DNA of 64,000 nucleotides from positions 1 to 64,000 of the forward strand of contig CALAGR010000138.1 in NCBI GenBank assembly GCA_937891735.1. The letters run 5' to 3'. The notes beneath the pieces are model-generated. The model did no database searches and was not told the DNA's origin. It saw only the letters and a program-made list of their open reading frames with translations. Below are positions 4,129 to 19,238 of this stretch, in pieces (the stretch's first letter is position 1; each line of letters starts with the position of its first letter). A program made the translations under genes and the position numbers. The stretch is from an uncultured Pseudomonadota bacterium (GTDB taxonomy: Bacteria > Myxococcota_A > UBA796 > UBA9615).

Positions 4129-4833
4129 ATGAGGCGGGCAGCCCTGCTGCCGCTCGGTGTCGCGCTCCTCTTCCTCTTCGCGACCCCCGCGCGCGCCCAG
4201 GGCCCGCTGGATCAGTGGATCGCGGGGCTCGATCCGGCCCACCCCGCGGGCGGCGACGTCGCGCTGTACGACGGCGGCCTCCCCCTCCCAGGCGCCCAGG
4301 CCGAGCTGCTGCTGACGATGCTGTGGTCGTCGGATCAGCGCGTGTCGGCGGTCGCCGTGGACGAGCTGAGCGCCTGGGGCGTGCCCGGCGGCGAAGCGGC
4401 GCTGCTCGCCGTGACCGCGGATCCGCGGTGGCCAACGCTGGACCCGGACCTGCGGGTGACCGTGCTGGCGGGGCTGCTGGACATGCGCTCGGGACGGGCC
4501 CTGGTGCCCTTCGCGCACGCCGCGCTGGAGGAGGACGGGGCCGTGTCGCGGGAGGGGATCCGGGGGCTGTGCGCCCTGGACGCACCCGAGGCCGAGCCCG
4601 TGCTGCGCCTGGTGACCGAGCAGGGTGACCGCCGGAAGCAGAGCTGGATCGTGCGGTCGCTGCGCCGGTCGGGCGCCCGGGACGCGGCCCGCACCGCCCG
4701 CACGGAGATCCGTTTCGAGCGCAAGGAGACCCGCAGCGACCGACGCGAGGACCGCAAGGAGAAGCGGCAGGACCGCAGGGACGAGCGCCGGGGCGATCCC
4801 GACGACGACGACGGTCCCGACGACGACGAGTGA
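4129..4833 (+). CDS. Secreted HEAT-like protein with highly charged C-terminus
   Basis: A 234-residue protein with a Sec signal peptide (cleavage near residue 24 after ARA). The middle (about 45-190) has repeated helical pairs resembling HEAT/PBS repeats. The last about 45 residues are almost entirely Arg, Lys, Asp and Glu (repeats such as DRREDRKEKR) and end in DDDDGPDDDE, probably a single charged helix plus an acidic tip. It starts 5 bp after the OmpA gene, so it belongs to the same operon. Function unknown; a periplasmic scaffold is a guess from architecture. Confidence 0.8.
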   Translation: MRRAALLPLGVALLFLFATPARAQGPLDQWIAGLDPAHPAGGDVALYDGGLPLPGAQAELLLTMLWSSDQRVSAVAVDELSAWGVPGGEAALLAVTADPRWPTLDPDLRVTVLAGLLDMRSGRALVPFAHAALEEDGAVSREGIRGLCALDAPEAEPVLRLVTEQGDRRKQSWIVRSLRRSGARDAARTARTEIRFERKETRSDRREDRKEKRQDRRDERRGDPDDDDGPDDDE

Positions 4834-14957: not shown

Positions 14958-15605
14958 GTGACCTGGCGCCTCCCCCTCCTGCTCCTCGCCGCGCTGCTGT
15001 GCCTCGTTCCCGCGGCCGGCGCGCACACGGTGATGTTCCAGCGGCTGGTGCATGTGCGGATCCAGCCCGAGGGGATGGAGGTCGCGATGGCGATCACCAT
15101 CCACGCCGGCCCCGAGGCGCTGCGCCTGCGCCAGCGGTTCGACCTGGACGGCGACGAAGAGCTGTCCCGGGACGAGCAGGACCAACTGGCGAACTGGCTG
15201 GACGCCGAGGCGTTTCGGGACTTCGCGATCCACGTGCAGGGCGATCCCGTGTCGCTGGATGGGCGGGAGCGGTTCCTGGAGCTGACCCAGAACCACCGCT
15301 CCGACCTGGGGGAAGGCCTGCGCTTCCGGTCCGTGCACGAAGGGCGCCTGCTTCTCCGACCCGGCGCGCGGCAGGTCGTGCTGCACGAGGCCCCGGGCAA
15401 CGCGCGGGAGATGATCGCGCTCCGGCTCGATCTGCACGAGGGCCTGGAGCTGACGAAGTCCGACGGCCGGGAGGGGGCCAGCCGCCTCGTTCCGGCGGCG
15501 CAGCAGAGCTGGCAGGGCCTCATCCGGGGCGTGCCGGGCGACTTCGTCCTCGACCTGCAGGTCTCCCGGTTGGGGCTCAGCCCAGACGACGCAGCACCGC
15601 GCTGA
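14958..15605 (+). CDS. Secreted protein with an EF-hand-like calcium loop
   Basis: A 215-residue protein of unknown function with a signal peptide (VTWRLPLLLLAALLC..., cleavage near residue 22 before HTVMFQ). An EF-hand or dockerin-like loop DLDGDEELSRDE lies at about residues 59-70, followed by beta-rich sequence. The GTG start at 14958 is chosen because it is the only start that gives the full signal peptide; no strong ribosome site precedes it. The last 29 bp overlap the 3' end of the convergent ATP-grasp gene. Confidence 0.68.
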   Translation: MTWRLPLLLLAALLCLVPAAGAHTVMFQRLVHVRIQPEGMEVAMAITIHAGPEALRLRQRFDLDGDEELSRDEQDQLANWLDAEAFRDFAIHVQGDPVSLDGRERFLELTQNHRSDLGEGLRFRSVHEGRLLLRPGARQVVLHEAPGNAREMIALRLDLHEGLELTKSDGREGASRLVPAAQQSWQGLIRGVPGDFVLDLQVSRLGLSPDDAAPR

Positions 15606-16431
15606 CGTAGCGCCGCAGCCCGGCGGGGCCCTGCGGAAAGAAGAGCGAGGGCTCGATGAGCTCCAGCTCCATCACCACCGGTGGCCCGGCCGGGCCCGGC
15701 GCCACGTCGATCCGGGCGTACAGCAGCGCGCCGTGGCGTTGGGCGACGGCCACCGCGGCGTGCGCCAGCGCCTCCTCCTCGGCCGAGATGGGCACCGACG
15801 TGGCGGTCACGGACTCGTCCTCGCCGTCCCAGCGCGGGTTCTTGCGGATGGCGTGGGTGAGGGCTCCGTCGATCCACACCAGGGCGCGCTCCCCGTGTCC
15901 CTCGACGGACTCCAGGTACGGCTGGATGAGCACGTCGCGCTCGGCCAGGAGGGCGGCGAGGTGGGCCTCTCCGAGCGCAGTGTCTCCGGGGCGCACCCGC
16001 AGCGTGCGAAAGGAGGCCGCCGAGATGGCCGGCTTCACGACGACGTCGCTCCACCCGCGCCGCGCCCGGACCTGCGCCAGGGTGTCCGTCCCGCCGCGCT
16101 CCAGGACCTCGGTGGGGGTGGTGGGCACGCCGGCCGCCTGCAGGTCCAGCAGGTAGCGCTTGTGCAGGTTCCACCGCACCACCGCGGGGGGGTTGACCAG
16201 CGTGGTCTGAAGTCCCACCGCGTCGATCCAGGCCGCGAACGCCTCGGGATGCTCGGGGTAGTTCCAGGTGGACCGGAGCAGGACGAGGGCGGCGTCATCC
16301 CAGCGCGCCGCCGGGTCGTCCCAGCCGCGCACGGCGACCGTGGCCCCGGCCTGCCGCAAGGCCTGCTCCAGGGGTGCAGCGTCCAGGTCCGGCTCGGGAA
16401 GATCACGACAAGAAGCGAGCACGATGGTCAT
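15577..16431 (-). CDS. ATP-grasp family carboxylate-amine ligase
   Basis: A 284-residue single-domain ATP-grasp protein resembling the RimK/GshB-like group found alone in many genomes (and relatives of cycloserine-pathway ligases). Visible elements are LLRSTWNYPEHP in the N-terminal domain, VVKPAISAASFRT at the ATP-binding strand, a QPYLESVEGHGERAL segment, and the metal-binding VVMELELIEPSLFF near the C-terminus, where the usual NxN is ELE. It should form an acyl-phosphate and an amide bond, but the substrates cannot be deduced. It is divergent from the Fe-S carrier gene. Confidence 0.8.
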   Translation of the reverse strand: MTIVLASCRDLPEPDLDAAPLEQALRQAGATVAVRGWDDPAARWDDAALVLLRSTWNYPEHPEAFAAWIDAVGLQTTLVNPPAVVRWNLHKRYLLDLQAAGVPTTPTEVLERGGTDTLAQVRARRGWSDVVVKPAISAASFRTLRVRPGDTALGEAHLAALLAERDVLIQPYLESVEGHGERALVWIDGALTHAIRKNPRWDGEDESVTATSVPISAEEEALAHAAVAVAQRHGALLYARIDVAPGPAGPPVVMELELIEPSLFFPQGPAGLRRYVSAVLRRLG

Positions 16432-16472
16432 GGCGGGGGAGGGTAGCTCCGGCCCCCAGCAGATCGGATGAG

Positions 16473-17583: not shown

Positions 17584-17931
17584 TCACCACGGGAAGCGGG
17601 CCGTCACCCGGCCCTGCACGCGCTCGACGCGGATCGCCCCGAACTGCCGGCTGTCGGTCGATGCGAGAGGATCGGGGTTGTCCCCGACCACGAAGAGCCG
17701 GCCGTCCGGCTCCACCCGCGCCACGCGCTTGACGATGAGGGTGTTCGCCACCGTGGGGTGGGACGCCAGAACGATGTGCCCCTCCTGCGGAGGGCGGCGC
17801 CGGTAGGCACGCGGATCCACCAGCACATCGTCGCCGTCGGCGTGGGTCGGGACCATGGAGGCGCCGACGATCTGGACTCGTCGGCGCCTCCTCAGGATCC
17901 AGAGCAGCGCCTCGATCAGGTGGTGTACCAC
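17584..17931 (-). CDS. sodX: Nickel-type superoxide dismutase maturation protease (S26 family)
   Basis: A 115-residue S26 (signal peptidase I / LexA-like) protease without a transmembrane anchor, as in SodX/SodT proteins that cut the Ni-SOD propeptide. The Ser is in GASMVPTHADGDDVLV (Ser25), the Lys in LIVKRVAR (Lys68), and the late motif VVGDNPDPLASTDSRQFG is the S26 box E. It lies directly 3' of sodN. The start is uncertain: GTG 17931 overlaps the last 16 bp of sodN and is the only common start near the domain. Confidence 0.85.
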   Translation of the reverse strand: MVHHLIEALLWILRRRRRVQIVGASMVPTHADGDDVLVDPRAYRRRPPQEGHIVLASHPTVANTLIVKRVARVEPDGRLFVVGDNPDPLASTDSRQFGAIRVERVQGRVTARFPW

Positions 17932-18386
17932 TCGATCTTGCGGCCCTTGATGGCCCAGAAGATGTCGTGGATCTTCTGGATGTTGGCCAGGAACTGCTCG
18001 GCGGCGGCCACGTTGACCCCCTGCTTGGCGGAGCTGGCGAGCTTCGTGGTCTCCCAGATCAGCGTGTGCAGATCGGGGTGGGCCACCAGGTGCTCCGGCT
18101 TGAAGAAGTCGGTCCACAGCACGAGCACCTCCTCCTTCGCGAGGTGGGCCTGCTGCTCCTTGATCGCCACGTAGCGGGCGAAGTGGTTCAGGTAATGGGC
18201 CCAGGCGTGGGCGTCGTTGCTGTCCGGCACGGTGAGCGCGCTGAGCTTCTTGCTCATGGACAGCACGGCCTCCGCCGCGATGCGTGCGGACGCGGGGTCG
18301 TACACGCCGCAGGGACCATCACAGTGGGCCTCGGCCTGGGGCGCGGGGTTGTTCTGGCGGAACTCGCGGATGAGCTTGTCGATCAT
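17916..18386 (-). CDS. sodN: Nickel superoxide dismutase
   Basis: A 156-residue Ni-SOD precursor. The nickel hook HCDGPCGVYDP begins at residue 21, giving mature His1, Cys2 and Cys6 as ligands, after a 20-residue propeptide (MIDKLIREFRQNNPAPQAEA) removed by SodX. The rest is the expected four-helix bundle. It converts superoxide to O2 and H2O2, normally in the cytoplasm as a hexamer. GGAGA precedes the ATG. The maturation protease is downstream and a nickel transporter gene ends 123 bp upstream on the same strand, so synthesis, processing and metal supply are together. Confidence 0.96.
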   Translation of the reverse strand: MIDKLIREFRQNNPAPQAEAHCDGPCGVYDPASARIAAEAVLSMSKKLSALTVPDSNDAHAWAHYLNHFARYVAIKEQQAHLAKEEVLVLWTDFFKPEHLVAHPDLHTLIWETTKLASSAKQGVNVAAAEQFLANIQKIHDIFWAIKGRKIEWYTT

Positions 18387-18429
18387 CGAATGTCTCCAAA
18401 GGAGGCTTCCCGGGGGAAGCGGGGGGTGG

Positions 18430-18458
18430 ATCTTTGGGGCCGGGTTCGGGGGTGTCAA
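18430..18458 (-). promoter_or_regulatory. Predicted promoter of sodN-sodX
   Basis: On the minus strand, consensus TTGACA (18453-18458) is 17 bp from AAAGAT (18430-18435), about 45 bp upstream of the sodN ATG. It suggests sodN can be transcribed separately from the transporter gene. I see no clear Nur/Fur palindrome beside it. Confidence 0.6.
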
Positions 18459-18509
18459 GAACAGGAGGCGGCCGCCGGCCTCACTGCGCCGAGCAGATGA
18501 AACACCCAG

Positions 18510-19238
18510 TCAGAGTCCCAGGAGCGAAATGGCCGCGCCGCTGCCGGCGATGGCCAGGCCCGCGAACACGTCGGCGTGCTTCTCGAACCGGTGCAAGGAG
18601 AGCCGGCCGAGCCCCACGTAGGCGGCCCCCACCACCGCCATCATGGTGCCGATGGTGGTGATCCCGAAGGCCGCCGTGACCAGCACGACGACGCCCCAGG
18701 CGTGCTCCGCGGCCGGGAACATGAGCATCGGGATCAGGGCCTCGCAGGGGCCGAAGGCGAAGATCAGGAACAGCGACCAGAAGGCCATGAAGCCGAGCTT
18801 GCGCCCATCGACGGTGGCCTCGTGCGCGTGCAGGTGCTGCCGCGCGTGGTCGTGACCGTGCTCGTGCAGCGAGCCGTCGTCGTGCGCGTGCCGGTGGCTG
18901 TGGTGCTCTCCCCGGCGACCGCGAATGAAGCCCCAGGTGGCCCAGGTGAGCCCGAAGGCGATCAGCAGCCAGGCGGCCAGCGAACCCCGCACGCCCTCGA
19001 CGAGCTCCAGCCGCTCCAGGGCCACGCCCACGCTGATCCCGGCCACGCCGATCACCACGGAGCTGAGCACGTGGGCCAGCCCACAGGCCGCGGTGATGGC
19101 CAGCACCTTGCGCAGCGACCAGCCCCGGGCATGACCCAGAACCACGAACGGCAGCGAGTGGTCGACCCCGATCAGCGTGTGCACCAGGCCGATGCTGACA
19201 GCGGTGAAGAGCAGGACTGCGACGGACGATTCGGTCAT
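18510..19238 (-). CDS. NicO/UreH-type nickel (cobalt) transporter
   Basis: A 242-residue polytopic protein with about six membrane segments. The first carries a NiCoT-like signature, His20...Asp26-His27 in GLVHTLIGVDHSLP, with five rather than the usual four residues between His and Asp-His. A cytoplasmic loop (about 108-142) has more than ten His residues mixed with Asp (HSHRHAHDD, HEHGHDH) and should bind nickel. UreH/HupE-like permeases import Ni2+ for metalloenzymes whereas RcnA relatives export it; the position upstream of sodN favours import for Ni-SOD. Confidence 0.85.
   Translation of the reverse strand: MTESSVAVLLFTAVSIGLVHTLIGVDHSLPFVVLGHARGWSLRKVLAITAACGLAHVLSSVVIGVAGISVGVALERLELVEGVRGSLAAWLLIAFGLTWATWGFIRGRRGEHHSHRHAHDDGSLHEHGHDHARQHLHAHEATVDGRKLGFMAFWSLFLIFAFGPCEALIPMLMFPAAEHAWGVVVLVTAAFGITTIGTMMAVVGAAYVGLGRLSLHRFEKHADVFAGLAIAGSGAAISLLGL

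Follow-up and report, generated by a model that had tools for sequence, protein, structure and literature searches.

The window, a stretch of 64,000 nucleotides of DNA, carries a nickel superoxide dismutase (Ni-SOD) module that very likely, with a probability of roughly 85%, makes the cell's cytoplasmic superoxide dismutase, with nickel supplied by a permease and the enzyme SodN matured by the protease SodX. This is a known kind of gene cluster, with a transporter from a branch that is unnamed in standard family libraries. All three genes lie on the minus strand within 17584-19238, in the order permease, sodN, sodX:

18510..19238, minus strand: divergent UreH-like permease, predicted nickel importer (SodT profile match, HX5DH, gene neighbourhood)
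18387..18509, minus strand: permease-sodN intergenic region, weak candidate for a separate sodN-sodX promoter (TTGACA)
17916..18386, minus strand: sodN, nickel superoxide dismutase (TIGR02753, PF09055, PDB alignment, invariant Ala20-His21)
18327-18386, minus strand: sodN propeptide, residues 1-20 (predicted mature start His21, HCDGPCGVYD)
17584..17931, minus strand: sodX, S26-like nickel-SOD maturation protease (TIGR02754, PF10502, Ser25/Lys68)

An earlier, sequence-only reading had described a complete Ni-SOD module on one strand, and this was confirmed: the dismutase, the protease that matures it and a permease with a putative role in nickel transport are all present. Its claim that a HCDGPCG hook follows a 20-residue propeptide also agrees with the SodN sequence. 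SodN starts at an ATG at 18386 and is 156 amino acids long, with residues 1-20 followed by H21-C-D-G-P-C-G-V-Y-D, so that residues 21-29 (HCDGPCGVY) match the family hook HCxxPCxxY after a propeptide. It scores above the curated NCBIfam cut-off for TIGR02753 (E=1.3e-55, 187.6 bits, cut-off 90) and matches PF09055 (E=2.8e-43, 147.9 bits, cut-off 25). Solved Ni-SODs from the PDB align to it from mature residue 1 (E about 1e-25), and Ala20-His21 is invariant across eight diverse SodN relatives that were aligned.

The S26 protease with Ser25 and Lys68, said to overlap sodN, was likewise borne out. SodX has a GTG start at 17931 and is 115 amino acids long, and the first 16 nt of its gene coincide with the end of sodN. 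It exceeds the curated cut-off of the SodX-specific model TIGR02754 (E=8.3e-21, 74.3 bits, cut-off 63.25) and reaches 56 bits against PF10502. The dyad is formed by Ser25 within GASMVP and Lys68 within VKR, and the SM and Lys columns are conserved among aligned SodX relatives. The model score, the Ser/Lys dyad and the position beside sodN all identify the protein as SodX.

In the proposed mechanism, the permease, a divergent relative of UreH and SodT, would bring Ni2+ into the cytoplasm, and SodN would be synthesised with its 20-residue propeptide. Judging from family knowledge and the sequence features above, SodX would act as a Ser/Lys protease and cleave between Ala20 and His21, leaving the His1 amine and imidazole, Cys2 and Cys6 free to bind nickel, as is expected for the family. 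Mature SodN would then assemble and remove superoxide, standing in for the Fe/Mn- and Cu/Zn-SODs that are missing from the genome. The module has been retained in a variable slot, flanked by a rhodanese gene and rpmB near parAB, since at least the time of the common ancestor with the genus sister.

The co-localisation of sodN, sodX and sodT, together with the suggestion that SodT helps to supply nickel, has already been published for marine cyanobacteria (PMC4284471). In marine Synechococcus and Prochlorococcus, the same three functions are adjacent, and the cyanobacterial cluster shares with the window a SodN with HCDGPC hook and propeptide, an S26-like SodX and an HX5DH permease with a His-rich loop. 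Gene order and strands differ: the window has permease-sodN-sodX on a single strand, whereas sodT of Prochlorococcus runs opposite to sodN-sodX. SodN structures from Streptomyces and relatives (1q0d, 1t6i, 1t6q, 1t6u) have in common with window SodN the family, the hook residues His1, Cys2 and Cys6, Tyr9 and a similar length, whereas mid-chain insertions set the two apart. Mature residue 17 is Ala in window SodN and all eight aligned relatives, in contrast to Glu17 in Streptomyces Ni-SOD. The Arg preceding the conserved IKE stretch is retained in window SodN. Being of known kind, SodN and SodX add little; the points of value are the permease branch and the apparent replacement of Fe/Mn-SOD.

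The permease starts at an ATG at 19238 and is 242 amino acids long. HTLIGVDH (residues 20-27) lies in the first helix, and the protein has about six hydrophobic regions, a His-rich central loop with 12 His between residues 106 and 145, and GPCEALIP in its second half. No Pfam model matched it at E<=0.1, and its single NCBIfam match fell far below the cut-off. An AlphaFold model from single-sequence input (pLDDT 56.5, pTM 0.41) consisted of helices only and was too poor for a fold search.

The sequence-only reading had named this protein a NicO/UreH permease and had regarded HX5DH as a departure from HX4DH. The NicO part (PF03824, comprising NiCoT and RcnA) was rejected, given the missing PF03824 match and the HX5DH motif, and a predicted divergent UreH-like branch takes its place. 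The supposed departure also fell away: HX4DH belongs to NiCoT, so the permease had been compared with the wrong family. Every full-length relative examined has HX5DH. An iterative profile search across the retrieved loci found it (HVVSGADH and similar) in the full-length permeases, SodT among them, that adjoin sodN-sodX in Prochlorococcus and Synechococcus, as well as in full-length permeases of the window's phylum, and a single-pass search with a model built from four sequences found it in those members of the window branch with the N-terminus present. NiCoT and RcnA resemble the window permease in being small metal permeases whose first helix bears a histidine motif, but HX4DH was seen only in a single NiCoT-like protein (L088, HGFDWDH), and the motif of E. 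coli RcnA reads HGLEPGH.

A published description of UreH was used to define membership (PMC4284471), and UreH genes adjoin urease, hydrogenase and SodN genes (PMC2667541). The permease has the corresponding SodT/UreH features, namely HX5DH, six hydrophobic regions, a His-rich central loop and a position adjoining sodN; the first three are shared with UreH/PF13386 permeases.

The label of divergent UreH-like permease is based on a profile match, on scores of its relatives below a family cut-off and on a separate tree branch. A six-member permease profile aligned with a SodT profile at 97.0% probability over 195 columns (E=8e-11, 24% identity), a score that the His-rich loop may inflate, and a one-pass HMM of the branch recovered a SodT (L072) at 5e-8 and a SodT-like permease (L006) at 8e-12. 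Against PF13386, which we take to cover UreH (UreH-like transmembrane), relatives of the permease reach up to 23.6 bits (cut-off 24.9) and one SodT-like permease 22.2 bits, with no match for the window permease itself. In the permease tree, the window branch stands apart from SodT, and RcnA and NiCoT fall on long, unplaceable branches. The window permease thus belongs to a branch distant from cyanobacterial SodT, at 24% profile identity, and differs from it in the second half (GPCExLIPxLMxPA).

Part of the same evidence bears on whether the permease could instead be an RcnA-like nickel/cobalt exporter that guards against metal excess and does not feed SodN. Its GPCExLIP stretch aligns locally with RcnA GLIPCPAAI (94.9% for the six-member profile, over only 44 columns), RcnA also has a His-rich loop, and the tree leaves RcnA without a position. 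RcnA, however, lacks the DH pair, while the permease and SodT have HX5DH in common; the SodT alignment covers 195 columns, the neighbours of the permease are nickel enzymes, and no RcnR-like regulator was noticed beside it when the ORF list was read by eye without a family model. An exporter is therefore very unlikely. Clustering with RcnA exporters, which the sequence-only reading had named as the result that would count against it, was seen neither in the motif nor in the profile comparison, the tree being uninformative on this point. The same six-member profile matched L088 at 9.5%.

Nickel uptake by the permease, the preferred reading, is supported by gene neighbourhoods. Across 379 genomes of the phylum, the permease was matched in 53; the best five matches all adjoin sodN, and further members lie elsewhere. 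The 28 canonical sodN loci seen in the phylum comprise nine with a window-type permease within about 1.5 kb, nine with a SodT-like permease and ten with none (some cut by contig ends). One genome of the same family, G118, has no permease within 1.5 kb of its sodN-sodX. The window-branch permease stands beside sodN-sodX in nine sampled loci with varying gene orders and orientations, and two paralogues, from two other genomes, adjoin CODH/ACS-related genes. One lies beside a CooC-type ATPase and CooT (L148; PF10133, E=5e-16), and the other beside a protein of the CdhC family (L149; PF03598, E=5e-16) and again a CooC-type ATPase, where the name CooC is a reading from ATPase sequence and neighbours and the libraries give only a MinD/ParA-like ATPase. 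These nine sodN-sodX and two CODH/ACS neighbourhoods support the predicted nickel uptake.

The permease might also carry a different substrate and lie next to sodN by chance. Its branch has many members whose genomes lack sodN and whose own neighbours show no obvious tie to nickel, and the permease and sodN are separated by 123 nt that may include a promoter. A TTGACA about 75 nt 5' of the sodN ATG, with the same hexamer upstream of sodN in three other loci (L130, L010 and L028), hints at an own promoter for sodN-sodX, in which case the permease need not be co-transcribed with them; this evidence is weak, and a formal sigma-70 scan of the intergenic region found no full promoter. Against a chance association, it recurs in nine loci of the phylum with different gene orders and orientations, and CODH/ACS-related genes adjoin the branch in two genomes. 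Mere adjacency is thus improbable, if slightly less so than export.

A broader proposal is that the permease represents an unnamed nickel-importer family, distant from SodT/UreH, that was recruited separately to Ni-SOD and CODH/ACS and alternates with SodT-like permeases at sodN-sodX within one phylum. This is advanced tentatively, at a little under even odds. As the branch has no Pfam or NCBIfam model and is tied by neighbourhood to two nickel enzymes, it offers a testable candidate for a new nickel-importer family.

The window genome yielded no Fe/Mn-SOD, Cu/Zn-SOD, urease, NiFe-hydrogenase or NicO protein in searches that do match in control genomes, absences that are provisional at 95% completeness (5.7% contamination). 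With neither Fe/Mn-SOD nor Cu/Zn-SOD found, the nickel enzyme is probably the only SOD of this genome. The genus sister (G004, 100% complete) also has no Fe/Mn-SOD and no Cu/Zn-SOD.

Ni-SOD had been called sporadic outside Streptomyces, cyanobacteria and marine bacteria in the sequence-only reading. Its distribution in the phylum is patchy (35/379 genomes), and a Ni-SOD of deltaproteobacterial type has been described before, from Plesiocystis (PMC8346466). Across 58 of the phylum's genomes, the presence of Ni-SOD tends to go with the absence of Fe/Mn-SOD and vice versa: 6 of 34 genomes with Ni-SOD also have Fe/Mn-SOD, versus 18 of 24 without Ni-SOD (Fisher p=3e-5, which overstates the contrast because the comparison group is non-random and kinship is uncorrected). 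In this phylum, Ni-SOD thus appears to replace Fe/Mn-SOD, making SOD metal switching approachable through close relatives.

The module is located between a rhodanese gene and rpmB, with bactofilin, parB and parA adjacent. Such gene content, with bactofilin next to parAB, hints at Myxococcota as the phylum. In the genus sister, permease, sodN and sodX occupy the same slot. In G118, a gap of about 35 bp is all that separates the flanking genes, and another contig carries sodN-sodX; in G137, other genes fill the slot, and in G253 further genes come between the rhodanese gene and sodN-sodX-permease.

These differences bear on the term island, used earlier for the module, and on the phylogenetic check for transfer that was proposed with it. 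Lateral transfer of the module is possible. A recent acquisition, for example from Chloroflexota, would fit the empty slot in G118 and its variability elsewhere, as well as the SodN tree, in which the SodN proteins of the window and the genus sister group with a SodN of Ardenticatenaceae (Chloroflexota; support 99/94) and not with SodN of other genera of their own family. This tree rests on only 137 columns, however, and monophyly of the same-family SodN proteins is not rejected (p-AU 0.078). The SodX tree gave no resolved placement, and the Ardenticatenaceae contig (L033, 3.9 kb) has no sodX or permease match. The GC content of the module equals that of its flanks, and the same insertion in the genus sister indicates that it is not very recent. 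Recent lateral acquisition is accordingly rather unlikely; the Chloroflexota grouping speaks for transfer, and the flank-like GC, the shared slot and the p-AU value speak against it.

A plasmid-borne module was rejected, since PLSDB gave no more than two matches to SodN and one to the permease, all of them distant. Base composition gave no signal of recent transfer, the GC being ordinary. Between window and genus sister, SodX is about 50% identical and SodN 83%. In the genus sister, about 320 bp separate sodN from sodX (L130:4668-4990) and hold tandem copies of a GC-rich repeat of about 55 bp.

A second, exported type of Ni-SOD occurs in the phylum (L029:1501-2280, minus strand; L030:1486-2019, minus strand; L131, about 4170-4628, plus strand). 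In these PF09055 proteins, a likely signal peptide ends directly before HCQxPCGxYD, and no sodX was found near the genes of L029 and L030; the exported type may thus have its His1 exposed by signal peptidase I. Signal-peptide Ni-SODs are mentioned in PMC12537917.

Two further genes lie near the module in the window. At 15577-16470 on the minus strand, an ATP-grasp-like protein resembles the D-cycloserine synthetase DcsG (216 bits, below the cut-off of 360). At 14958-15605 on the plus strand, a putative secreted protein, matched by no Pfam family, has a likely signal peptide followed by an N-terminal His (AGA-HTVMF) and an EF-hand-like DLDGDEELSRDE, and recalls the N-terminal-His metal-binding proteins of PMC12537917.
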